Positions 18,715 through 30,028 of a stretch of 31,141 nucleotides of DNA are shown here, in pieces. Below the pieces are notes generated by a model. That model made no database searches and was not told where the DNA came from. It worked only from the letters and a program-made list of their open reading frames with translations. Positions within the stretch are counted from its first letter, which is position 1; each line of letters opens with the position of its first letter. Source of the DNA: a virus; IMG/VR virus record IMGVR_UViG_3300031702_000031, positions 1 through 31,141 of that record, one strand, 5' to 3'. A program made the position numbers and the translations under genes.

Positions 18715-18737
18715 GGCGCTCACTAGCGCCTTTTTTT
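18715..18737 (+). terminator. Strong intrinsic terminator
   Basis: GGCGCT / AGCGCC stem with a CACT loop is followed by seven T residues. The last T is the first base of the adjoining late promoter, so the two elements abut. Confidence 0.95.
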
Positions 18738-18756
18738 ATAAATAATGATATAAATA
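18737..18756 (+). promoter_or_regulatory. Tandem T4-type late promoter boxes
   Basis: Two exact TATAAATA boxes lie 12 bases apart (18737-18744 and 18749-18756), just after a terminator and before the first gene of the curli operon. No sigma-70-like promoter was seen between here and the end of the cyclase gene, so late transcription of the whole operon is inferred. Confidence 0.75.
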
Positions 18757-18768
18757 GGAGTGATAGTC

Positions 18769-19047
18769 ATGGATGTATTTAGCCTTATCGCTGATGTGGG
18801 ATTCCCTATAGCATCAGCACTAGCAGGTGGGTTTTTCGTTTTCTTAACATTGCGATTCATATTGGATGGCGTGTTAAGTGACATTAAAACGCAAAGAGGA
18901 TTCGCTCAGGCGTTGGATAATAGAATTAAGACGATGAATAATGAAGTCATACGTATTGATATAATGGTTTGTCATGCGTTTGGAGTCAAACCTGATTTGA
19001 ACATAATAGCCCGAGCCGACGGGCAGAAGGATGCGAGGAAAGACTAA
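18769..19047 (+). CDS. Small membrane/coiled-coil protein, paralogue A (holin-like?)
   Basis: This 92-residue protein begins MDVFSLIADVGFPIASALAG, giving one N-terminal transmembrane helix (about residues 8-32). A helical tail contains DNRIKTMNNEVIRIDIM. The layout (V-GFPI-A membrane segment, then D-R-I--M-N--I-R-I) is shared with the 19429 protein, so the two are paralogues. The ATG behind TAGGAG is chosen over a GTG at 18760. Single-helix proteins like this include BhlA-type holins; position makes a curli-accessory role equally possible. Confidence 0.7.
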   Translation: MDVFSLIADVGFPIASALAGGFFVFLTLRFILDGVLSDIKTQRGFAQALDNRIKTMNNEVIRIDIMVCHAFGVKPDLNIIARADGQKDARKD

Positions 19048-19223
19048 TGATGTGGAAAGAATTACTACTAATGAAGTTCAGTAATGGATTCAGGATTCTA
19101 TCTCAAAATGATCCAGACGATAAGTTTTTCGTCATCGATGATGTAGAGATAAAGATTGGTGATACGTTCAGAGTAGGACCTAATGGTTACTTTGAGAGAA
19201 TTGCGGATGGACCTGCGTCATGA
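19047..19223 (+). CDS. Small beta-rich protein, paralogue B1, 58 aa
   Basis: The product starts MMWKELLLMKFSNGFRILSQ and ends with KIGDTFRVGPNGYFERI. This end resembles the PGDIYEVQENGWLKKI end of the following protein, so they form a second paralogous pair in this operon. It starts on the last base of the preceding stop and overlaps the next start (ATGA). Function unknown. Confidence 0.65.
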   Translation: MMWKELLLMKFSNGFRILSQNDPDDKFFVIDDVEIKIGDTFRVGPNGYFERIADGPAS

Positions 19224-19429
19224 TGTGGGTTGATTATACTATAGACCAGGCCGGTAATGGATTCACGGTTAAAGGCGAATGGCCGGGTGAAGTCATGGGC
19301 GTTGGTCGAGATGGCAAGATTGGCGGTGATGGTGCAAAATCACACACACTGTACCAACCAGGAGACATCTACGAAGTACAAGAGAATGGATGGCTGAAGA
19401 AAATATCCATCAACACTAGAGATGCCTAA
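19220..19429 (+). CDS. Small beta-rich protein, paralogue B2, 69 aa
   Basis: It begins MMWVDYTIDQAGNGFTVKGE with a glycine-rich centre (GVGRDGKIGGDGAKS) and ends with PGDIYEVQENGWLKKI. The MMW start and C-terminal block relate it to the gene before it. There is no signal peptide. Both ends overlap neighbours, so it is part of a coupled chain leading to csgF. Confidence 0.65.
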   Translation: MMWVDYTIDQAGNGFTVKGEWPGEVMGVGRDGKIGGDGAKSHTLYQPGDIYEVQENGWLKKISINTRDA

Positions 19430-19752
19430 TGGAAGAGACTAATTTAGATATAGCTCAACTGATCGGTCAGTATGGGTTCCCTATCATCGCCGCAGTAGGG
19501 CTCGGGTATTTCATATATTATATATGGAACTGGGTAACGGAAGAGGTCGATCCAGTGATTGGGGAGTCACATATGACCCTCATAGCACTGATCGATAGAG
19601 TAAGAATGTTAGATAATGACCTGATTAGGCTTAAAACTAAACTAGACATGATCTTGCAACAACAGGAAAAATACGATTATGAAAATAAAAATGATGACAT
19701 TGACCGCCGTAGCGGTACTGATCGCCGTAGCGGGACAGACAACAGCGAGTGA
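19429..19752 (+). CDS. Small membrane/coiled-coil protein, paralogue A2, 107 aa
   Basis: An N-terminal helix in QYGFPIIAAVGLGYFIYYIW spans the membrane (about residues 13-34). A helical region with IALIDRVRMLDNDLIRLKTK follows, and the tail is basic and repetitive (DRRSGTDRRSGTD). It is a paralogue of the 18769 protein, and I recall similar proteins in marine myoviruses. Its last 74 bases overlap csgF in another frame, so the tail and the CsgF signal peptide are encoded by the same DNA. Confidence 0.75.
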   Translation: MEETNLDIAQLIGQYGFPIIAAVGLGYFIYYIWNWVTEEVDPVIGESHMTLIALIDRVRMLDNDLIRLKTKLDMILQQQEKYDYENKNDDIDRRSGTDRRSGTDNSE

Positions 19753-20155
19753 ATTAACTCATGTGTTTGTGTCGCCAGCGTTTAACGGCAACGGTTATAG
19801 TTCGCACATACTGACAATAGAGCAGTTAGAGGCGAATAGAAGAAAAGAAATTAAGGACGAGAAGAAGGCACGAGAGGACGAAGCAGAACGTGATTTGAAA
19901 TCTACCAATGCATATAAGTTCCAGAACAATTTAGAGTCTAGAATTTATGCAACGCTTTCTAAGAATATAGCAGACTCGCTATTCGGTGAAGGTGGTGGTG
20001 AAACAGTAGAAGGAGAATGGTACGAAGCGACTACGCCATTTGGAGATACGATTGCATGGAAACAAGAAGGCGGTAGAATATATGTGACCGTCACAGATTC
20101 CAATGGAGACATTGTTTCCGAGTTTGATGTTCCTGTAGGAGACTTTTCGTTCTAA
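19679..20155 (+). CDS. csgF: CsgF-like curli assembly protein
   Basis: The 158-residue protein has a clear signal peptide (MKIKMMTLTAVAVLIAVAGQ, predicted cleavage near TTA-S). The mature N-terminus contains FVSPAFNGNGYSSHILTIEQ, matching the F-NPNFGGNP-NG segment of E. coli CsgF that inserts into the CsgG pore. The C-terminal half has the CsgF-like pattern with a QGGxxxxVTD-type strand (QEGGRIYVTVTDSNGDIV). CsgF anchors the nucleator at the outer membrane. AGGAA supports this start despite the long overlap with the upstream gene. The stop overlaps the csgG start. Confidence 0.88.
   Translation: MKIKMMTLTAVAVLIAVAGQTTASELTHVFVSPAFNGNGYSSHILTIEQLEANRRKEIKDEKKAREDEAERDLKSTNAYKFQNNLESRIYATLSKNIADSLFGEGGGETVEGEWYEATTPFGDTIAWKQEGGRIYVTVTDSNGDIVSEFDVPVGDFSF
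19702..19737. repeat. Tandem 18-base repeat in overlapping reading frames
   Basis: Two 18-base units sharing CGCCGTAGCGG lie in the overlap of two genes. One frame reads DRRSGT twice; the other encodes the hydrophobic core of the CsgF signal peptide. Confidence 0.75.
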
Positions 20156-20943
20156 TGATACGTATTATAGCATTATTAACAGCAGTACTTTTCACTCAAG
20201 GATGTGCGAGTGTGGTCAGCGACTTCGGTTTTGACCATAAGCCAGAAAAGGCGGAAGTGATCAAGAACGACAACACTGAGTTCTTGACGTTACCAGCGCC
20301 ATCTACGGGTAAAGCAGTAGTAGCAGTTTACGGCTTTACTGATAAGACAGGGCAGAGAAAGCCTAGTGAAAGAATGGCTAATATAAGTACCGCTGTAACG
20401 CAGGGTTCTGAAGTTTGGCTAATCAAGGCACTCCAAGAAGTTGGAGGAGGTACTTGGTTTCAGGTAGTGGAACGAATAGGGTTAGAGAATCTAACTAAAG
20501 AGAGACAGATAATTCGACAAGCCCGTGCGGCTGTTTCGGATACAAGAGAATTGAGACCGATGCTATTTGCAGGAGTCTTAGTAGAGGGAGGCATAATTGG
20601 ATATGATTCTAATGTGCTGACTGGAGGTGCAGGTGCTCGATACTTAGGTGTCGGTCCCAGCACTCAATACCGACAGGACATAGTGACTGTCACGATTAGA
20701 ATGGTGAGCGTACAGACTGGAGAAGTGTTACTTAGCGTTTCTACGACTAAGACTATCATAAGCACAGGTACCAGTATGACGTTCTTCAGATTTTTTGATA
20801 TGGGCACAAACTCGCTAGAGGCAGAAATGGGACATTCGATTAATGAGCCCGTCAATTATGCCGTAAGAGTTGCAATAGAGCAAGCCGTAGTTGAATTGAT
20901 TAAAGAAGGGGAGAGGAAGGAATACTGGCAATTTGTCAAGTAG
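20155..20943 (+). CDS. csgG: CsgG-like curli secretion pore lipoprotein
   Basis: The 262-residue protein is about the length of E. coli CsgG. It begins with a lipoprotein-type signal ending LFTQGC; Cys17 is the likely acylated residue, though Thr at -3 is unusual. LPAPSTGKAVVAVYGFTDKT-GQ-KP matches the N-terminal CsgG domain. EGGIIGYDSNVLTGGAGARY and LGVGPSTQYRQD match its most conserved block, and TTKTIIS followed by FRFFD the barrel region. It would form the outer-membrane channel for unfolded curli subunits. The ATG overlaps the csgF stop. Confidence 0.95.
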   Translation: MIRIIALLTAVLFTQGCASVVSDFGFDHKPEKAEVIKNDNTEFLTLPAPSTGKAVVAVYGFTDKTGQRKPSERMANISTAVTQGSEVWLIKALQEVGGGTWFQVVERIGLENLTKERQIIRQARAAVSDTRELRPMLFAGVLVEGGIIGYDSNVLTGGAGARYLGVGPSTQYRQDIVTVTIRMVSVQTGEVLLSVSTTKTIISTGTSMTFFRFFDMGTNSLEAEMGHSINEPVNYAVRVAIEQAVVELIKEGERKEYWQFVK

Positions 20944-20948
20944 ACCTT

Positions 20949-20956
20949 TATAAAAT
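20949..20956 (+). promoter_or_regulatory. Late-promoter-like box TATAAAAT
   Basis: TATAAAAT, one or two bases off the late consensus, lies in the 98-base gap before the first curlin gene. A GTTCG / CGAAC repeat follows. It might give the abundant subunit extra transcription. Weak. Confidence 0.3.
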
Positions 20957-21041
20957 TATAACGCCTTTGATATGAGGAGTAAAAAAATTAAAAAAAATAC
21001 GTTCGTTGTCGGGAGAGATCGAACAAAACGGAGTAAAACAT

Positions 21042-21734
21042 ATGAGCAATCTAAAGCTTAAAATTATACCGATAGTAGCATTCGCACTATTCGCAACAGA
21101 GGCATATGCTAGTGATGTGTATATCGTACAAGCTGGTAGCAGTAGTACAATCGATATCACACAAACCGGTAATGGTAACACAGTAGGTAATTCTACAACA
21201 GCTACAACATTAAATGGCGATAGTCAAGATATTGACATAAGCCAACAAGGTAACTCGAACAAAACTGATATAGCTACAACAGCAGGATCAAGTTCAACAA
21301 CGATCAATATCCTAAACACAGGCGACTCTAACGAGACCGTCATGGGTATTGCCACAACCGGAACGACCTTCACTTCTACAGTGACAGGCGATAATAATCT
21401 GGTAACAGTATGTGGCACAAATGATAACTCTGGAGTTGCATCTGTTGGATCAACTACTGGCGGAACATCGACGGCGTCTACATCAGGTACGATAGCGGCC
21501 TGTACGACAGAGGTGACTGCTTCTGATACGACTACAACTCTAGCGACCACTGGTGATTATAACACAGTCAATCTAGAATTGGATGCTGCCGATGCAGTGA
21601 ATACCATAACAGTTGGCGGTAACGTGTCTAGTAACTTCAATGAGATTAATCTCACACAATCTACTACAGACATTCCTGTAGTTACTATGACAGTTGATGG
21701 TGATAGTAATGCGATTAACATCATACAGAATTAA
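21042..21734 (+). CDS. Curlin-repeat amyloid subunit 1 (CsgA/CsgB-like)
   Basis: This 230-residue protein has a signal peptide (MSNLKLKIIPIVAFALFATE, cleavage near YA-S) and a Ser/Thr/Gly/Asn/Asp-rich body. Curlin-type strand-turn units include VYIVQAGSSSTIDITQTGNG, then QDIDISQQGNSN and, at the end, GDSNAINIIQN. Two cysteines (in VTVCG and IAACT) are unusual for curlins. It probably forms part of an extracellular beta-helical amyloid exported through CsgG. The start behind CGGAGT is preferred over a TTG 36 bases upstream. Major and minor subunit roles cannot be told apart. Confidence 0.82.
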   Translation: MSNLKLKIIPIVAFALFATEAYASDVYIVQAGSSSTIDITQTGNGNTVGNSTTATTLNGDSQDIDISQQGNSNKTDIATTAGSSSTTINILNTGDSNETVMGIATTGTTFTSTVTGDNNLVTVCGTNDNSGVASVGSTTGGTSTASTSGTIAACTTEVTASDTTTTLATTGDYNTVNLELDAADAVNTITVGGNVSSNFNEINLTQSTTDIPVVTMTVDGDSNAINIIQN

Positions 21735-22812
21735 ACTACTATCAACACTTATACTATGTTTTGCTAGTTCTTTTGCATTGGGTAATACTACGGAAACGAT
21801 TGGTAGTATTACTTCGCAAAAGGGCAACCCTGCACAAATAACGAGAGATGGCGATAACATCTCTACGGAGCAGGGAACTGGTCTAGTTATGGATGATGAA
21901 ATAATCACAGCCAAGACCAAACTGGGACTCACATTCATAGACGATACTAGGGTCAGCGTCACAGAACAATCCGTATTAGTCATCGATGACTTTATATATG
22001 ATCCAAGTACTGGTACAGGCAAACTAGCAATGAACATCGCACTCGGTACTGTTAAGTACTCATCTGGTGCAATCGCAAGAAACTCAAGAGAAAATGTATC
22101 CCTAACCACACCCACTGCGACAATATCTGTTCGTGGTACTGACTTCACTATGACTGTAGACGAACTGGGCAGAAGTATCGTTATTCTGTTACCAAGTTGT
22201 CCTCCTGTGGGCGATTGCTGGACAGGTGAGATTATGGTTTCTACCGAAGTGGGACAGGTCATATTAAATCAGGCATATCAAGCAACATTAGTATCGAACA
22301 GAATGGCTACTCCAACTAAGCCTAAGATACTAGACATCACTGAAGCTAACATCGGCAACATGCTAATCATCACACCACCGCCTGAACTGAAAGGCGTAGG
22401 ATACATAGCTCAAGCAGAAGTTGCCGAATACTTAGATAGCGATTTGCTAGAATATGCCGAACTAAATTCGGACGAATTAGAAGAAGATAAACTAGAATTC
22501 CTAGAGCTTGATGTTAACAGGCTCGACATAGATTTCCTATTCAATGTGCTAGATGCCACTGCTATGCTACAAGACGATGAGTTAGCAATCGATCCAGTGC
22601 TTCCTACGATCAATACATATAGAACAACCGTTCAAGCATTCTATGACGAAGATAAAGTTGGCATCTACAGTGAAAGTTCTGTGCATATTTCAGATGTAAC
22701 TACAGAGCGTGTGATAGACGGTGACGTAAACATGTACAAAGACGGTGTTCCAGCACTCATCCAAGTAAACGGAGGTGGAGATGTTATCATCAATATTACG
22801 CAAAATCAGTAG
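21709..22812 (+). CDS. Secreted FecR-domain protein
   Basis: A 367-residue protein with a signal peptide (MRLTSYRIKLLSTLILCFAS, cleavage near ALG). A FecR domain runs from about residue 30 to 150; its signature is VSLTTPTATISVRGTDFTM, preceded by a repeat with KLGLTFIDDTRVSV. A Leu/Glu/Asp-rich middle (about 230-275) follows, and the end (GGGDVIINITQNQ) resembles a curlin half-repeat. FecR domains act in periplasmic sensing or surface binding. The ATG at 21709 is chosen because it gives a clean signal peptide. The gene overlaps both curlin genes (26 and 32 bases). Confidence 0.82.
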   Translation: MRLTSYRIKLLSTLILCFASSFALGNTTETIGSITSQKGNPAQITRDGDNISTEQGTGLVMDDEIITAKTKLGLTFIDDTRVSVTEQSVLVIDDFIYDPSTGTGKLAMNIALGTVKYSSGAIARNSRENVSLTTPTATISVRGTDFTMTVDELGRSIVILLPSCPPVGDCWTGEIMVSTEVGQVILNQAYQATLVSNRMATPTKPKILDITEANIGNMLIITPPPELKGVGYIAQAEVAEYLDSDLLEYAELNSDELEEDKLEFLELDVNRLDIDFLFNVLDATAMLQDDELAIDPVLPTINTYRTTVQAFYDEDKVGIYSESSVHISDVTTERVIDGDVNMYKDGVPALIQVNGGGDVIINITQNQ

Positions 22813-23773
22813 CACTCTAATTCTAGCGTGGTTCATATCCGCAGACGCATATGCCGATACTGGTACACCAGTGATGAATGTTAGTGGAAGTGGCAGTGAT
22901 TATATCTTTGTATACGAAGGAAATGATACAACAACCTATACAGACTTATCAGCTTTGGGCAATTCGATTATTGGATGGACAGCTACTTGCACATCAGGAA
23001 ACTGTACAGTTGGAGATACGCTTATAGTCGGTGGCATTGGTGGCAACGGTAATGATTACCTATTCTTGTACACATTCGATAGCGATGGCAATGTTGTTTA
23101 TCCAGTACCGGGAGCTTGGTACTCGTTTAGCACAACAGTGGCCGCCGCAACTCCAGTTTACGGATCAACTGCGCCGACCACAGCGCAACAAACTAGAATA
23201 AATGCAAAACTCGCACTAGCAGCCGCAGGACAAGGCGATACAGTAGAAGCAAGCATATTTGGTGATGATAATCTAATACACATTATACAGGCTGGTGGAG
23301 TAAGTTACTTAAACTTAATGATTAGCGGTAATCTCAATTCATTTGAATCTGAACAGGATTTAGCTACAGGCTCCCATGGATACATCGAAGCTACTATAAC
23401 TGGCAATAATAATGATGTAGATATATTACAGAAAGGCAACAACTTTGACGGTGCTGGCAGTAAAGCAACTATACTTACTATCACAGGAGATAGTAATGAT
23501 GTTGATATAAGGCAACACGGCAATGGTGATAAATTTATAGACTTAGAAATTACTGGCGATAATCACAAGGCAGATATATTTCAGAATGGAGCGGGTGCTC
23601 ATTCCGCTAGAGTAGAACTCGATGGCGAACAGCCATGGGATTTTAAGTTAGAGCAGAAAGGAGCAATCGATAAGGATTACACATTGCCACATACCATGAG
23701 CGATGGCACTGGAGTTAGTGGAACTTGTAATGCTTCAGGTGGTTGCAACCTAATAGTGTATCAAAATGACTAA
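22781..23773 (+). CDS. Curlin-repeat amyloid subunit 2
   Basis: This 330-residue protein has a signal peptide (MLSSILRKISSTLILAWFIS, cleavage near AYA-D), a non-repetitive N-terminal part and a curlin-like C-terminal half. Repeat units include GDDNLIHIIQAGG, GNNNDVDILQKGNN, GDSNDVDIRQHGNG and GDNHKADIFQNGAG at about 20-residue spacing. Two Cys pairs are present (TCTSGNC and GTCNASGGCN). GGAGG lies 5 bases before the ATG. Its N-terminal extension could mediate attachment, like CsgB, but this is inference. Confidence 0.85.
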   Translation: MLSSILRKISSTLILAWFISADAYADTGTPVMNVSGSGSDYIFVYEGNDTTTYTDLSALGNSIIGWTATCTSGNCTVGDTLIVGGIGGNGNDYLFLYTFDSDGNVVYPVPGAWYSFSTTVAAATPVYGSTAPTTAQQTRINAKLALAAAGQGDTVEASIFGDDNLIHIIQAGGVSYLNLMISGNLNSFESEQDLATGSHGYIEATITGNNNDVDILQKGNNFDGAGSKATILTITGDSNDVDIRQHGNGDKFIDLEITGDNHKADIFQNGAGAHSARVELDGEQPWDFKLEQKGAIDKDYTLPHTMSDGTGVSGTCNASGGCNLIVYQND

Positions 23774-23933
23774 AGCTAATAAATCTCCGGTGGTCTATTG
23801 GACTTCTCAATGGGAAGAAACGGGTAAGATAGAAGTCTGTGTGGATAAGAACGGTGACAAGTATACTAGACCCCAACTTAGGTTGATAGGCGAACGAAAT
23901 TCTAATTGGAAATCGATAGCAACTCGACACTAA
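23766..23933 (+). CDS. Small hypothetical protein, 55 aa
   Basis: A basic soluble protein, MTKANKSPVVYWTSQWEETG, ending RNSNWKSIATRH. It overlaps the curlin 2 stop by 8 bases, which suggests coupled translation, but it has no signal peptide. No family recognised. Confidence 0.55.
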   Translation: MTKANKSPVVYWTSQWEETGKIEVCVDKNGDKYTRPQLRLIGERNSNWKSIATRH

Positions 23934-23937
23934 ATCG

Positions 23938-23944
23938 CTAAATA
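23938..23944 (+). promoter_or_regulatory. Degenerate late-promoter-like box CTAAATA
   Basis: CTAAATA lies between the 55-residue gene and the cyclase unit. It is a possible secondary late start; evidence is weak. Confidence 0.25.
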
Positions 23945-24010
23945 GATGTACGGAACATACATATAGAAGAGTACTTCGTGTGCAGATAGATAAAACTTAT
24001 GGAGAATGTC

Positions 24011-24091
24011 ATGGATAGCTACGCAAAGTACATGAAATTCAAATATGGATTCAAAAAACGTAAGGGCTATTATGTGGACATTTACGTATGA
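24011..24091 (+). CDS. 26-residue leader peptide before the cyclase
   Basis: A tiny frame behind GGAG encodes MDSYAKYMKFKYGFKKRKGY and six more residues, very basic and Tyr-rich. Its stop overlaps the cyclase start (ATGA). The cyclase has no separate strong ribosome site, so translation through this leader may set cyclase levels. Confidence 0.45.
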   Translation: MDSYAKYMKFKYGFKKRKGYYVDIYV

Positions 24092-26121
24092 AGTATATTT
24101 TATCGCCATTATTTGCTATCATTACCACGCTACTTCTGACATGGCTAACGCTATCAAATCCTACCTTATTGCAGGTGATCGATCTAAAGATTGCAGATCA
24201 ACTCATAGTGCAAGAAAAAGAACCCGTCAACGATGTCGTACTGATCGACATATCAGAAAAGACTTTAGAAGTACATGGACAATATCCCTTACCTAGAGAC
24301 ATCTACGGTGACCTGATTGTCAGGTTACGAGAAGCTAACGCTGGTGTCATTGTATTCAACATATCATTTCCTGAAGAAGATCGTACAGGTATGGATGAGA
24401 TGTTCACATCAGTTCTCGGACAGGGCGTCATTCTATCTCACTTCCCTAGCAATAAAGCTCAAAACAGATCAGCATACAGTACTGCTATTGTACAGGTTGG
24501 TGGTGATGCTTTGGATTATATTTACAATTATCCTGGTATAGCCGCAAACTTAGAGAAGTATGAGACACAAGCAACTGGCATCGGAATTGCCAATACCCTA
24601 CCTGAGATCGATGGCGTTGTCAGACGATTGCCCATGCTGGCTGGCGTAGGTGACGACCTGTACCCATCTATCGTACTAGAGATATTCAAAGCGTACTCCG
24701 GATCCAACACATTTCAGGTGAAGTCAAACGACTTCGGGGTTACCGCAGTTCGTGTTAAAGGATTTCCAACGATAAAAACTGACCCAAGTTCTAGAATATG
24801 GATGAATCCAAACTACGTTTTTAAGCGTTATGATTTAGTCAAGGAGTTGCCCGATTTGCAAGGAGCAACAGTGTTTATTGGTGTTACTGCTGAAGGTGTC
24901 TCCAATCCCGTTCCTACGGCTTCTGGTGCTGTCTACGGACATGATGTGACTGCTAGATCATTTACGTCTGTTAAAAATAGATACAATATCATCACTCATC
25001 CGCTAGAAGAGTTCACCAAACTCATCGGCATACTCGCATTAGGTCTAGCCATTGTGCTACTGAGTTACATACGATTTGGCTGGGTAATATCAATAAGCAT
25101 GACTGGTGCTTTGATCTATCTTCCTGTATATTTCTTTAACACTTATATGCAACTGTATATCACTAGTATTCAAGGACTCATGGGAATCATAGTATTCGCA
25201 CATGTGTACGGAGTCAAGTACGGGCAAGAGTACTTCGAGAAGATGAAGATCAAGAAGCAGTTTGCTGGATATACATCTCCAGAAGTTGTGCTGATGCTAC
25301 AGAATAACCCCGAAATAGTTAAGAATGGTGTCAAGAAAGAAGTGTCAATTGTGTTCTCTGATCTACGAGGCTTCACGCCGCTTGGTGAGTCGTTTGGTGA
25401 CGATGTGAAGGGTCTAACTCAAGTAATGAACGCATACATGGACGCAATATCTGAGCCAGTCATTGATGCAAATGGCATGATAATCAAATACATTGGTGAC
25501 GCATCTATGCACATACACAATGCGCCTATGGATGACCCAGAGCATCCCAAGACAGCAGTACAAACTGGACTGAATATGCTAAGGGCTGTAGATAAATTCA
25601 ACACAGAACTAATGGCTCAAGGCAAGCCTGAAATTGGCATGGGTGCGGGCATCAATAGCGGACTAGGATATATCGGTGAGATGGGGTCGACCAAACGTCA
25701 CGCATACGACATACTTGGAGATGCTGTTAGCACTGCGGCTCGTATAGAAAGTAAATGTAAAGAGTATGGGTGTGTTTTACTTGTCGGTGGTAGCACATAT
25801 AGTACGACCAAAGACGATTTCTTCTACTTGAAAGTCGATGATCTAGCAGTAAAAGGCAAGACTATCGGCATTGAGATATACACAGTACTCGACCTAGACC
25901 CACTTGATTACACCACAGAAACTAAAATTCACAATGCGATGCATGATAAATATCGTAGTATGAAGTTTGACGATGCTATAAAACTATGCGAAACGCTCAA
26001 AGGAAGTTTTGGTGGTCAGATAGATGGCTACTATGACATGTGGATTGAACGTTGTGTATATATGAACACACAGACCCTTCCAAAAGACTGGAACGGAGTC
26101 TTCATCGCAACTACCAAATAG
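24088..26121 (+). CDS. CHASE2-class III adenylyl cyclase
   Basis: A 677-residue membrane protein. One N-terminal helix (residues 5-23) is followed by a periplasmic CHASE2 domain (about 24-305, with PLPRDIYGDLIVRLREANAG and RRLPMLAGVGDDLYPS), three helices (about 311-378) and a class III cyclase domain. Metal ligands D425 (FSDLRGF) and D471 (YIGDASM), adenine-selecting K467 and D541, and transition-state R552 are present, predicting ATP to cAMP. The usual transition-state Asn is Ser548. The domain order fits full-length bacterial CHASE2 cyclases. Curlins, FecR and this cyclase together suggest envelope or amyloid sensing. Confidence 0.93.
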   Translation: MKYILSPLFAIITTLLLTWLTLSNPTLLQVIDLKIADQLIVQEKEPVNDVVLIDISEKTLEVHGQYPLPRDIYGDLIVRLREANAGVIVFNISFPEEDRTGMDEMFTSVLGQGVILSHFPSNKAQNRSAYSTAIVQVGGDALDYIYNYPGIAANLEKYETQATGIGIANTLPEIDGVVRRLPMLAGVGDDLYPSIVLEIFKAYSGSNTFQVKSNDFGVTAVRVKGFPTIKTDPSSRIWMNPNYVFKRYDLVKELPDLQGATVFIGVTAEGVSNPVPTASGAVYGHDVTARSFTSVKNRYNIITHPLEEFTKLIGILALGLAIVLLSYIRFGWVISISMTGALIYLPVYFFNTYMQLYITSIQGLMGIIVFAHVYGVKYGQEYFEKMKIKKQFAGYTSPEVVLMLQNNPEIVKNGVKKEVSIVFSDLRGFTPLGESFGDDVKGLTQVMNAYMDAISEPVIDANGMIIKYIGDASMHIHNAPMDDPEHPKTAVQTGLNMLRAVDKFNTELMAQGKPEIGMGAGINSGLGYIGEMGSTKRHAYDILGDAVSTAARIESKCKEYGCVLLVGGSTYSTTKDDFFYLKVDDLAVKGKTIGIEIYTVLDLDPLDYTTETKIHNAMHDKYRSMKFDDAIKLCETLKGSFGGQIDGYYDMWIERCVYMNTQTLPKDWNGVFIATTK

Positions 26122-26752: not shown

Positions 26753-26760
26753 TATAAATA
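26753..26760 (+). promoter_or_regulatory. T4-type late promoter box TATAAATA
   Basis: An exact TATAAATA lies 25 bases upstream of a sigma-70 promoter, so the cell-wall hydrolase could be transcribed in both phases. Confidence 0.6.
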
Positions 26761-26853: not shown

Positions 26854-27435
26854 ATGCTATTTAAAGGTTACACAGTAAAAGAGTTAGGACACTTTATGTC
26901 TGGACTACTATCAGTATTGTCTATGGGTGGATTAGTATTCATAGGTATCAACGCATCTATTGCATCAGCTAATCAGATCGCAATAGATCAAGCAACAGCA
27001 CTAAAAGTCGAACGTCAAATGGAGTACATCCGTGAGCATGAATGTCTCGCACTTAATCTATACCATGAGGCTAGAAGTGATTCGACTTTAGGTCAGAAAG
27101 CAGTGGGCTTTGTTACGATCAATCGAGTAATGCATGAGAGCTATCCCGATACTATCTGTGATGTTGTCTATCAGGCACACGTTGATCAGAAGGGTAATCC
27201 CTTACGTAACAAATGCCAGTTTTCTTGGTACTGTGACGGTAAGCATGATCGCCCTTTGAGTGAGAAAGATTATAATACAGCGATGATCAATGCTCAAGAG
27301 ATAATGCGTGATTATGGTAAGATTCCAGACGTAACAGATGGTTCTATCATGTACCACGCATCCTATGTGAAGCCGTATTGGGCAAGTACTTATGAGCGTA
27401 CCGTTAGAATCGACAGTCATATTTTTTATAAATAA
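26854..27435 (+). CDS. SleB-type cell-wall hydrolase (candidate SAR endolysin)
   Basis: A 193-residue protein with an N-terminal hydrophobic segment rich in Gly, Ser and Ala (HFMSGLLSVLSMGGLVFIGI), then the Hydrolase_2 fold. ECLALNLYHEARSD (E63, E72) holds the catalytic Glu. VGFVTINRVMHESYPDTICD and CQFSWYCDGKHDRP follow, with YHASYVKPYW near the end. SleB enzymes cleave peptidoglycan. The weak membrane segment suggests a signal-anchor-release endolysin exported by the host Sec system. GGAG precedes the ATG, behind both a late and a sigma-70 promoter. Confidence 0.88.
   Translation: MLFKGYTVKELGHFMSGLLSVLSMGGLVFIGINASIASANQIAIDQATALKVERQMEYIREHECLALNLYHEARSDSTLGQKAVGFVTINRVMHESYPDTICDVVYQAHVDQKGNPLRNKCQFSWYCDGKHDRPLSEKDYNTAMINAQEIMRDYGKIPDVTDGSIMYHASYVKPYWASTYERTVRIDSHIFYK
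27427..27434 (+). promoter_or_regulatory. T4-type late promoter box TATAAATA
   Basis: An exact TATAAATA overlaps the hydrolase stop codon and lies about 80 bases before the kinase gene, which is therefore probably late. Confidence 0.65.
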
Positions 27436-27459: not shown

Positions 27460-27528
27460 ATGGACTTGATCAAACCAATAACAACACTAACACCAAAGGG
27501 CTATATTAGAAATGCTATCGTTCAGTAA
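27460..27528 (+). CDS. Possible 22-residue leader peptide
   Basis: A tiny frame behind GAGGGAAG reads MDLIKPITTLTPKGYIRNAI plus two residues and overlaps the kinase start by 17 bases. The ribosome site is better than that of the kinase, so coupling is plausible. Unproven. Confidence 0.35.
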   Translation: MDLIKPITTLTPKGYIRNAIVQ

Positions 27529-28207
27529 CTACCTCAAAGAAGAAATAATAGAAGTGGAAGAGGGCGTCAATGACCCCGCAATATTCAAAGCTGTATTCCT
27601 AGCAGGTGGACCTGGATCAGGTAAATCATTCATTGTAGGTAAAACAGGTCTTCAAGCACTAGGCTTTAAAGTCGTCAACTCAGACGATGCATTCGAAAAA
27701 GCAATGGGCAAAGCAGGACTAGAGACAACACCAGAAAATATCTTTTCAGTCAAAGGTCAAGAACTCCGGGGCGCCGCAAAAGCACTAACGGGCGTTAAGC
27801 AGAATATGTGGCTTAAAGGTCGACTCGGTCTTGTCATTGACGGAACTGGTAAAGATACAGATAAATTAAAGAAGCAAGCGGCTACGCTGAAGAAGCTTGG
27901 ATACGATGTCGCAATGATATTCGTAAACACCGACCTTGCTACAGCACAAGCACGTAATCTCAAACGTAAGCGTACATTGCCCGCTGATGAAGTAGAGAAA
28001 TATTGGACAACAGTACAGAAGAACATTGGTGCATTCCAGACCTATTTTGGTAAGCAGAAGTTCACTGTAGTGGATAACTCTGAAGGTAAGGACTACGTTC
28101 AAGAGACTCTACGTGCATATAAAGAGATTACTAAGTTTACTAAGAATCCACCTGAAAACTCTAACGCTAAGAAGTGGATCGCAGGTCAAAAGGCTAGTAA
28201 AAAGTAA
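27512..28207 (+). CDS. P-loop (zeta-toxin-like) kinase with capsid-targeting-like N-terminus
   Basis: This 231-residue protein has Walker A GGPGSGKS (residues 31-38) in FLAGGPGSGKSFIVGK. DDAFEKAM follows, then LVIDGTGKDTDKLKK and a lid region with LKRKRTLP. This fits the zeta-toxin/AAA_33 nucleotide or sugar-nucleotide kinase group seen in T4-like marine phages. The start MLSFSNYLKEEI resembles the short capsid-targeting leaders of T4 internal proteins, and with the late promoter this suggests packaging into the head. The substrate is unknown. Confidence 0.78.
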   Translation: MLSFSNYLKEEIIEVEEGVNDPAIFKAVFLAGGPGSGKSFIVGKTGLQALGFKVVNSDDAFEKAMGKAGLETTPENIFSVKGQELRGAAKALTGVKQNMWLKGRLGLVIDGTGKDTDKLKKQAATLKKLGYDVAMIFVNTDLATAQARNLKRKRTLPADEVEKYWTTVQKNIGAFQTYFGKQKFTVVDNSEGKDYVQETLRAYKEITKFTKNPPENSNAKKWIAGQKASKK

Positions 28208-28216: not shown

Positions 28217-28247
28217 ATTATGAAACGAAGTGAATTGGAGATGTCAA

Positions 28248-28787
28248 GTGAACTTAAAAGAACTAACGTGGGAGAACCACAAATCCGCAGAACGTAAGAA
28301 ATTTGCGTCTGTGCTAATGAGCGGCAATATTGACCCTGCCCTCTATCATCGATACCTTGTAAATCAGTTTTATAACTACGTTGCTCTAGAGTACAAGATG
28401 CCTCTAGTGGAACTTGGTCTGAGGGGTATCAATCGAGCAGAACTAATTTCTGAAGATATTATCGAACTAGAGGACATGTATGGACTCGATAGAGCCGATG
28501 TGTCAATAGCCCAATCTACTAAAGACTATGCTAAATATTGCGAGGAGCTGTACGATAATAATAAAGACGGCTTGATCGCACATATGTATGTCCGACATTT
28601 TGGAGATATGTATGGTGGTGCTATGATCGCTAAACGTATTCCCGGTAGTGGTATGATGTACAAATTTGAGAATGTAGACACACTGAAGACCACTGTTCGT
28701 GGTATGCTGGACGATAGTATGGCACCTGAAGCGAACCGTTGCTTTGAATTTGCAATAAGACTATTTGGAGAATTAGAAAATGACTAA
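28248..28787 (+). CDS. hemO: Heme oxygenase (GTG start)
   Basis: The 179-residue helical protein opens MNLKELTWENHKSAERKKF; His11 matches the proximal heme ligand in the T-x-x-x-H-x-x-A-E helix of heme oxygenases. GLIAHMYVRHFGDMYGGAMI near residue 115 is the distal helix with its G-D-x-x-G-G motif. The enzyme opens heme to biliverdin, CO and iron. The GTG is chosen because GGAG lies 7 bases upstream and the start aligns with the family. The following two genes overlap in sequence, forming a bilin operon with the reductase that would use its product. Confidence 0.9.
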   Translation: MNLKELTWENHKSAERKKFASVLMSGNIDPALYHRYLVNQFYNYVALEYKMPLVELGLRGINRAELISEDIIELEDMYGLDRADVSIAQSTKDYAKYCEELYDNNKDGLIAHMYVRHFGDMYGGAMIAKRIPGSGMMYKFENVDTLKTTVRGMLDDSMAPEANRCFEFAIRLFGELEND

Positions 28788-28926
28788 TACAGACCTTGAA
28801 GCGTCATATGAGAAAGTGATGGAAGCACTCGAGGAGAGAAAGCGAAGAATGAACCGACTACAGACAATGCTGATCGGTCTTTACGCAGTTACAGTAGTGA
28901 TGTTATTTATTGGAGCATGGCTATGA
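28780..28926 (+). CDS. Membrane microprotein between the bilin genes, 48 aa
   Basis: It starts MTNTDLEASYEKVMEALEER as a charged helix, then RKRRMNRLQ and one C-terminal transmembrane helix (about residues 30-47). Positive residues before the helix predict a cytoplasmic N-terminus. It overlaps the heme oxygenase stop by 8 bases and the reductase start by 4 (ATGA). Its place inside the operon suggests it could anchor the pathway to the membrane; no family recognised. Confidence 0.7.
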   Translation: MTNTDLEASYEKVMEALEERKRRMNRLQTMLIGLYAVTVVMLFIGAWL

Positions 28927-29606
28927 GTATTATTTGGAAAAGTCTCATTGACTTACAGAATCACTTCATTGATGAGTTTTCTGGTAGTGGAATCGAAGTA
29001 CAAGAACCTGGTATGGAACAATTTAACAAGCCTGGTTGGGTAAACAGAGTTTGGACATCCCACGACTATCGTAGGGCACACGTTGATGTTGTCGATATGC
29101 GTGAAGAGAAGAAGATGTGGATGATGCATGTCTGCGTATTCCCTCACACTGACAGTGATGCACCTATCTACGGATTTGATGTGATCGCTGGCGCTAATAA
29201 GATGACAGGCGCATTTCATGATTTCTCTGCTACGACTAATCTGGAACACCCGATGATCGATTGGTTCGGTGAAGTTGCATCTGCGTTATCATGGAAACGT
29301 GAACGAGAGTTACCGCCATGGGCTAAAGCCATCTTCACTGATCATATGATCGCCGCAGGTATGGTTAAAGAACCCGCAGAGATCGCACAGATAACTGGTG
29401 CGGCAATGGAAACACTATCATACTATCTAAAAGAAGTCGGTAATTACAACGGATATTCTTCACACGAATTAGGCATAGCGACACAGAATAACTATGCACA
29501 TCATCAGAAGCAGAATCCTCACACACCGAATGTCATGAAGAGCCTAGGCATCGATCCAGATGACGTAGACTTATTCATCCAGAAGTGTCTTTTTCCAGAG
29601 CTTTAA
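28923..29606 (+). CDS. pcyX: Ferredoxin-dependent bilin reductase, PcyX-like
   Basis: This 227-residue protein has the FDBR core: YRRAHVDVVD, MHVCVFP, PIYGFDVIAG and TGAFHDFS, with ELPPWAKAIF later. Aligned by eye with cyanobacterial PcyA, His69 and Asp86 match its His88 and Asp105, while its catalytic Glu76 is Asp55 here. This fits PcyX, the viral type reported to reduce biliverdin to phycoerythrobilin. Electrons would come from ferredoxin; none is encoded in this window. The ATG is coupled to the upstream stop. Confidence 0.88.
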   Translation: MSIIWKSLIDLQNHFIDEFSGSGIEVQEPGMEQFNKPGWVNRVWTSHDYRRAHVDVVDMREEKKMWMMHVCVFPHTDSDAPIYGFDVIAGANKMTGAFHDFSATTNLEHPMIDWFGEVASALSWKRERELPPWAKAIFTDHMIAAGMVKEPAEIAQITGAAMETLSYYLKEVGNYNGYSSHELGIATQNNYAHHQKQNPHTPNVMKSLGIDPDDVDLFIQKCLFPEL

Positions 29607-29653: not shown

Positions 29654-29692
29654 GTGAGCGACAGGGTAAAGCTGTCAAACAAGGAGAAAGAT

Positions 29693-30028
29693 ATGAAAAT
29701 AATAATAGCTATAATAGCAGTACTATCTACGAGCGCATTAGCCGCACCTTATGTTGAATTTAAGAGTAAAGCAAAGGTCACTAGTGAATCTTATGGAGTG
29801 TCTTATTTTACAAACGATGCTGTCAACCACATACGGTTGGGTACTACGTGGAAGAACATGTACTTTGAAGGTGGTAAGATGACCAATGGTGTATCCACCG
29901 AAGCAGGTTATAAGTTCAAGAACTTAGGTGGATCAAACCTTACTTTGAAAGGTAAGGTAGAGAGTACTAAGTTAGATGCAGGTCAGTGGAAGCACGGAGT
30001 TGAAACAGAACTTCGTTACACATTTTAA
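29693..30028 (+). CDS. Small exported beta-barrel-like protein, 111 aa
   Basis: A signal peptide (MKIIIAIIAVLSTSALA, cleavage before or at A-P) is followed by alternating strands such as YVEFKSKAKVTSESYGVSYF and GVSTEAGYKFKNL. The last residues RYTF end in Phe, the usual signal of outer-membrane barrel proteins. About six short strands fit, so it could be a small barrel or a periplasmic beta protein. AAGGAG precedes the ATG; a GTG 39 bases upstream would bury the signal peptide and is rejected. Function unknown. Confidence 0.7.
   Translation: MKIIIAIIAVLSTSALAAPYVEFKSKAKVTSESYGVSYFTNDAVNHIRLGTTWKNMYFEGGKMTNGVSTEAGYKFKNLGGSNLTLKGKVESTKLDAGQWKHGVETELRYTF

Follow-up and report, generated by a model that had tools for sequence, protein, structure and literature searches.

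The virus record IMGVR_UViG_3300031702_000031 (31,141 base pairs (bp), GC 41%; the whole stretch is referred to here as the window) carries a curli (type VIII) secretion module with its own fibre subunits. The module occupies positions 19679–26121 on the plus strand and encodes CsgF, CsgG, a first curlin-repeat protein (curlin A), a secreted FecR-domain protein, a second curlin (curlin B) and a CHASE2 adenylate cyclase (Table 1). CsgF, CsgG, both curlins, the FecR protein and both domains of the cyclase protein pass their Pfam cut-offs. Its other genes, which include T4 RNase H, PhoH, a CobS-like AAA ATPase and a 731-residue 'peptidase' family protein, mark the window as part of the genome of a T4-like marine phage. 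Relatives of the 731-residue protein belong overwhelmingly to Synechococcus and Prochlorococcus phages and include proteins of Pelagibacter phages. Megablast of the window DNA against phage records gave no match.

Table 1. Features of the curli module and its surroundings, in window positions
Feature	Position	Strand	Evidence
CsgF	19679..20155	+	Pfam 50.9 bits (cut-off 25.8), 2.3e-13
CsgG outer-membrane channel lipoprotein	20155..20943	+	Pfam 186.4 bits (cut-off 20.8), 5.5e-55
Curlin A, first curlin-repeat protein	21039..21734	+	Curlin_rpt 24.8 bits (cut-off 20.7), 2e-5, 3 stretches
Secreted FecR-domain protein	21694..22812	+	Pfam FecR 30.6 bits (cut-off 24), 4.6e-7; AlphaFold2, Foldseek
Curlin-like C-terminal tail of FecR protein, about 60 residues	22627..22809	+	hhalign to curlin B C-terminus
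Curlin B	22775..23773	+	Curlin_rpt 26.3 bits (cut-off 20.7), 7e-6
CHASE2 sensor and class III adenylate cyclase, 677 residues, inner membrane	24088..26121	+	Pfam CHASE2 113.9 bits, 1.2e-32; cyclase 62.0, 7.1e-17
T4-type late promoter core TATAAATA, first of two	18737..18744	+	Sequence match, perfect
T4-type late promoter core TATAAATA, second of two	18749..18756	+	Sequence match, perfect
Membrane and coiled-coil-like protein, 95 residues	18760..19047	+	phrog_18771 1.4e-25; no Pfam match
Paralogue of the 95-residue protein, 107 residues	19429..19752	+	phrog_18771 1.1e-30; weak holin phrog_4898, E 0.0012
Late promoter core TATAAATA upstream of endolysin gene	26753..26760	+	Sequence match
Cell-wall hydrolase, SleB type, N-terminal transmembrane segment 14–39	26854..27435	+	Pfam Hydrolase_2 9.8e-22; phrog_938 endolysin

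A preliminary description of this DNA, made from the sequence alone, had recognised a curli operon in a T4-like phage, and both parts of that identification hold, with CsgG and CsgF well above the family thresholds. It had placed the operon at 18737–26121, which runs from the first base of the promoter core to the stop codon of the cyclase gene, a gene that it left undescribed; the FecR protein was treated as an accessory. The single overlapping operon that it proposed stands in part: CsgF and CsgG overlap by 1 bp, curlin A and FecR by 41 bp and FecR and curlin B by 38 bp, but 95 bp separate CsgG from curlin A and 314 bp separate curlin B from the cyclase gene. Its mention of curli clusters in pelagimyophages proved right: CsgF and CsgG have been reported there by Zaragoza-Solas et al. 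2020 (PMC7029224), and the whole pelagiphage module, including curlins, FecR and cyclase in the same order, by Wittmers et al. 2022 (PMC9599517).

The secretion channel is well supported. CsgG matches CsgG in the PDB at 7.4e-49, and residues 1–51 of the CsgF profile match PDB CsgF (6l7a_J, E 0.016). An N-terminal peptide of the form [FV]x[NS][PSA]xF is present in 70/70 CsgF proteins and in 10/1039 control open reading frames (ORFs). A stricter version of the pattern fitted 28/70, and the controls were scored with the one relaxed to its conserved core. Of the signal peptides noted earlier, those of CsgF and CsgG are seen as hydrophobic N-terminal segments; those of the curlins and the FecR protein are putative, judged visually and from the N-terminal helix in the AlphaFold models. 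CsgG has a weak lipobox, with a cysteine at residue 17 after 'FTQG'.

As first noted for the window, CsgE is lacking: it was found neither there nor in a further 12 related records, which include two complete phage genomes, while CsgC, CsgD and CsgH were not specifically searched. This does not disqualify the module as a curli or type VIII system, because alphaproteobacterial systems lack CsgE (PMC3521004). Since alphaproteobacteria normally do without CsgE, CsgC and CsgD (PMC3521004), the borrowed host parts previously suggested need not be invoked. The window shares with E. coli csg the CsgG channel, CsgF and curlin repeats, and differs from it in having no detected CsgE, in the added FecR protein and cyclase, and in a curlin A without an N22-like signal.

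Two curlins and a FecR protein with a curlin-like tail

In curlin A the repeats start directly after the signal peptide, and the protein holds four kernel motifs versus 0.38 in shuffled sequences (p<0.0005). Curlin B holds three versus 0.67 (p 0.02). The curlin A family profile matches PDB 8c50 (1.1e-6) and the CsgA fibril 8enq (5.5e-4). The motif shuffles, the PDB profile matches and selection on the genes rule out chance similarity. We dropped the lack of an N22 signal in curlin A as a special trait, N22 being the exception among curlins (PMC10192328).

The two curlins can be told apart by a pair of cysteines. In the window, the sequence GTCNASGGC of curlin B precedes the last strand, LIVYQND. 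Two cysteines lie within the last 30 residues of every curlin B (41/41, and 27/27 in a second set; 68/68 together) and of no curlin A (0/51 and 0/50; 0/101 together). The pair is usually spaced C-x5-C, and its last cysteine is found 7–11 residues from the C-terminal end, just before the last strand. In the oxidising periplasm, these cysteines could form a staple on the final turn.

The FecR protein comprises a FecR domain (residues 37–200), an acidic disordered linker (about 224–297) and a C-terminal beta domain (about 305–372). AlphaFold2 predicts this last domain confidently, as six strands of about 11 residues each, and its last strand, 'INITQNQ', is curlin-like. The Pfam FecR match is shared by 46/46 family members. 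Foldseek searches with the model returned the FecR/PupR cell-surface signalling domain, a putative anti-sigma factor and a bacterial 'cell surface anchoring domain' (5ix9). The window protein itself has neither an anti-sigma part nor a transmembrane helix, only a short signal-peptide-like N-terminal helix and no other Pfam domain.

The tail ends in a hydrophobic-x-hydrophobic-x-Q motif followed by zero to three residues and the stop. This motif terminates 42/47 non-redundant FecR proteins versus 2/401 control ORFs, and occurs in 1/43 CsgG proteins and 1/41 cyclases. With the pattern fixed beforehand, a second set of FecR proteins dissimilar to the first gave 52/53 versus 1/268, which brings the control ORFs to 3/669 in all. 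It was absent from all 82 FecR proteins at bacterial loci without CsgG. A preceding glutamine of the same type lies 21–22 residues upstream in 29/33 tails, a strand spacing that corresponds to one curlin repeat length (23 ± 5, PMC10192328). Aligning a profile of the last 60 FecR residues with curlin B C-termini in hhalign gave a probability of 76.8 (E 2e-5) over 62 columns, end to end; the probability was 42.1 for curlin A C-termini and at most 3.3 for eight controls. The C-terminus of E. coli CsgB, AIRVTQR, is a similar terminal strand and resembles FecR ends such as ITLIQR. As the tail is found in curli loci and is near absent from controls and absent from FecR proteins of loci without CsgG, the FecR protein is probably a fibre component and not an iron regulator.

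The shared C-terminal strand could instead be no more than an export or quality-control tag for CsgG, in which case FecR would not enter the fibre. Such a tag would be common to all three predicted substrates, and structure searches do not class the FecR tail as a curlin. However, the tail is about 60 residues long with curlin-repeat spacing and aligns over its full length with curlin B, and we consider this explanation rather unlikely.

Conservation and probable late transcription of the module

Searches of viral contigs returned at least 598 relatives of CsgG and at least 578 of FecR. At least about 600 contigs thus carry such a module, which places it with the most frequent multigene cargo that marine phages have. 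A first set of 83 viral loci comprised those of the CsgG search, of two cultured phages and of the window itself; a second set of 80 loci came from the FecR search and has some contigs in common with the first. Throughout both sets, the order CsgF-CsgG-curlin-FecR-(curlin)-cyclase is unbroken save for one extra curlin copy, and curlin genes were found in every viral locus long enough to show them. The synteny survey called for in the preliminary description thus finds both the curlin repeats and the order of the genes retained in relatives. Pairwise ratios of non-synonymous to synonymous substitution rates (dN/dS) between close relatives were 0.03–0.11 for CsgG and CsgF and 0.07–0.31 for the other module genes, with synonymous sites saturated in several comparisons. 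Every gene of the curli module is under purifying selection.

Of the cultured phages, HTVC008M has a pelagiphage module described in the order (small upstream genes)-CsgF-CsgG-curlin-FecR-curlin-cyclase; its CsgG is 49.6% identical to that of the window. Methylophilales phage Melnitz also has the full operon. The Melnitz paper states that csgA and csgB are missing and proposes a lysis pore (PMC9004378). Generalised, this would make the CsgG/CsgF pore the point of the module, as a pinholin- or secretin-like channel that times lysis or admits molecules, with the fibre genes as remnants; an endolysin gene and holin-like genes do adjoin the operon in the window. Contrary to the stated absence, however, the Melnitz record itself annotates two curlin-repeat proteins within the operon, together with FecR and a cyclase. 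The persistence of curlin genes in all sufficiently long viral loci, the selection that maintains them and the channel peptide kept in every CsgF also speak against remnants, and render a pure lysis pore improbable.

Both operon-side TATAAATA cores lie just 5' of the first small membrane/coil gene. At related loci, [TA]ATAAATA occurs at most 60 bp upstream of the first such gene in 12/29 (expected 0.32) and 13/34 cases (expected 0.43), the two locus sets having some contigs in common. Over the 60-bp stretch that precedes the small genes, the enrichment is about 30- to 40-fold. Across the whole window, the count of cores shows no excess (10 versus 8.9 by chance). The position of these motifs suggests that the curli module is likely transcribed from T4 late promoters, late in infection. 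Late expression would also suit an amyloid that coats virions, or one that stays periplasmic and stiffens the cell, instead of decorating the surface. Neither a dedicated outer-membrane channel nor CsgF would then be needed, and we regard this as highly improbable.

The 95-residue phrog_18771 protein is linked to the operon and is not strictly a member of it: in other loci the small transmembrane/coil pair lies downstream on the opposite strand or was not found. Wittmers et al. 2022 annotate the genes before CsgF as histidine kinases (PMC9599517). At this place, the window, HTVC008M and Melnitz all have genes for proteins of roughly 92–115 residues of the phrog_18771 type, and Pfam detects no kinase domain at E 0.1 in the 95- and 107-residue proteins of the window. 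Taking the genes to be the same from their position, we infer that these upstream proteins are not kinases. ORFs of about 95–135 residues 5' of csgF, at L045:7079-7378 and similarly in L038-L040, L046, L047, L051, L054, L068 and L070, match the phage cyclase profile (64–93 bits) but are not cyclase domains.

Among bacterial genes, chromosomal CsgF-CsgG-curlin(s)-FecR-cyclase operons were found in Caulobacteraceae (L088, L089) and Hyphomonas (L090), and resemble the window in gene content. Both Caulobacteraceae FecR proteins carry the tail. Operons of this type are seldom seen, occurring in 1/249 genomes of the order, which is the query genome itself. In one Caulobacteraceae operon, a PycTM (Pycsar effector-like) gene lies directly 3' of the cyclase gene (L088:12488-13081) and has no relative in the other loci. 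Phage-type curli operons also occur in genome bins assigned to Rhodobacteraceae, Flavobacteriaceae, Pirellulales and Pelagibacter (L084-L087, L114). We set aside the reading of these as bacterial operons because they lie on short contigs, several with the phage-type transmembrane/coil pair; they may be mis-binned phage contigs.

The CHASE2 cyclase and a proposed link to the fibre

The cyclase retains its metal-binding aspartates 425 and 471, Lys467 and the transition-state Arg552 in 50/50 sequences, and its adenine-site residue 541 (Asp in the numbering) is D, T or S. With the ATP-type lysine invariant, a guanylate or cyclic-pyrimidine product is disfavoured.

Pairing of FecR with CHASE2 extends beyond curli loci. 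Of 72 bacterial loci without CsgG, 24 have FecR encoded close to CHASE2 (11/30 in SAR11, where many loci are closely related and the counts are not independent events, and 13/42 in others), in all but one case within about 1.6 kb. The outputs joined to these CHASE2 domains are a cyclase, a SpoIIE phosphatase (SAR11) or HD. Clusters of CHASE2-kinase or CHASE2-cyclase with FecR have been published (PMC5192318, PMC9239204) and, like the window, encode an exported FecR-domain protein near a CHASE2 sensor. Unlike the window, FecR proteins of bacterial loci without CsgG have no curlin-like tail. A 2016 paper described the ligands of CHASE2 as unknown (PMC5192318); in S. meliloti, CHASE2 cyclases react to a protein signal via an outer-membrane protein (PMC13001267). 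At L096:5379-10476, L104:5575-9573 and further Pelagibacteraceae loci, the CHASE2-SpoIIE phosphatase gene of SAR11 has a gene for a secreted FecR-domain protein close by, and some SAR11 FecR domains form the start of secreted proteins of about 1000 residues.

Read directly from the sequence are CsgG and CsgF, two curlins, a tailed FecR protein and a CHASE2 cyclase that keeps its main catalytic residues, all encoded in a fixed order. With a probability of roughly 60%, we interpret the module as a viral type VIII secretion system of alphaproteobacterial type that is transcribed late, with FecR docked on the fibre and the cyclase reporting. Sec would carry the curlins across the inner membrane, and after passage through the CsgG:CsgF channel they would assemble into amyloid on the infected cell. 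The FecR protein would dock on the fibre via its curlin-like tail, as a CsgB-like base or a cap, and in the periplasm its FecR domain could partner the CHASE2 sensor, through which the cyclase would report fibre export or anchoring. The benefit might be an altered surface of the doomed cell, with aggregation or shielding from rival phages. More tentatively, and with some doubt, the FecR protein may be a fibre-docked ligand, its tail in the amyloid and its linker-borne domain read by the cyclase, through which the virus would couple amyloid export to a second messenger in hosts without a known receptor.

Several observations weigh against this interpretation. The Hyphomonas operon has a FecR protein without the tail, Pfam Curlin_rpt gives no match to FecR tails, and no curlin was among the Foldseek matches listed for the FecR model. 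The curlin A model is of moderate quality (predicted local distance difference test score 70.7) and gave no significant Foldseek match, only weak beta-solenoid matches. In the cyclase, the transition-state asparagine at position 548 is replaced by serine in the window and in 24/50 sequences. Melnitz, a cultured relative with the module, showed no clumping (PMC9004378). Receptors for the messenger are also scarce: 58/60 Pelagibacteraceae genomes have no domain that binds cyclic nucleotide monophosphates (cNMPs), nor do any of 18 virus records, two of which are complete genomes; a search for PilZ receptors in phages found none. Class III cyclases are likewise lacking in 58/60 Pelagibacteraceae genomes. 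The two genomes with a cyclase are the same two that have CsgG, on the same contig, and these contigs are probably phage DNA. The window's own host may have a cyclic-nucleotide receptor.

The same receptor survey bears on the proposal of Wittmers et al. 2022 (PMC9599517) that FecR, the cyclase and the 'histidine kinase' regulate curli transcription through iron or cyclic AMP. The domain names and the co-localisation of the genes speak for it. However, the FecR protein of the window is exported and lacks the anti-sigma part and membrane helix, the small upstream proteins show no kinase domain, transcription likely starts from T4 late promoters, and a cNMP receptor is missing from the phage records and from most SAR11 genomes examined. 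Transcriptional control of this kind is therefore very improbable.

The gene set itself is already published; what is new here is the FecR tail, the curlin B cysteine pair, the FecR-CHASE2 pairing and the missing receptor. In the passages searched in PMC9599517 and PMC7029224, we found no mention of the tail, the cysteine pair or the CHASE2 domain, nor of the non-kinase nature of the small proteins or the missing cNMP receptor. With FecR recast as a probable fibre component, the curlins told apart by their cysteines and the cyclase left without a receptor, a vague 'biofilm' story becomes a series of specific, testable steps. If our interpretation is true, CHASE2, a widespread sensor domain, gains a candidate class of protein partner.

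Genes downstream of the module

The cell-wall hydrolase that follows the module is likely an endolysin, a neighbour that lies outside it. Next comes a P-loop kinase (27512-28207) that matches Pfam Zeta_toxin and AAA_33 and polynucleotide kinase in PHROGs. Also directly downstream of the module lies a phage bilin-pigment gene pair, a heme oxygenase (28230-28787, Pfam 1.2e-17) beside a ferredoxin-dependent bilin reductase (28917-29606, 7.6e-13). The gene at 29654-30028 weakly matches a cyanophage outer-membrane-protein-like beta-barrel family (PF24653, E 3.4e-5, under its cut-off).

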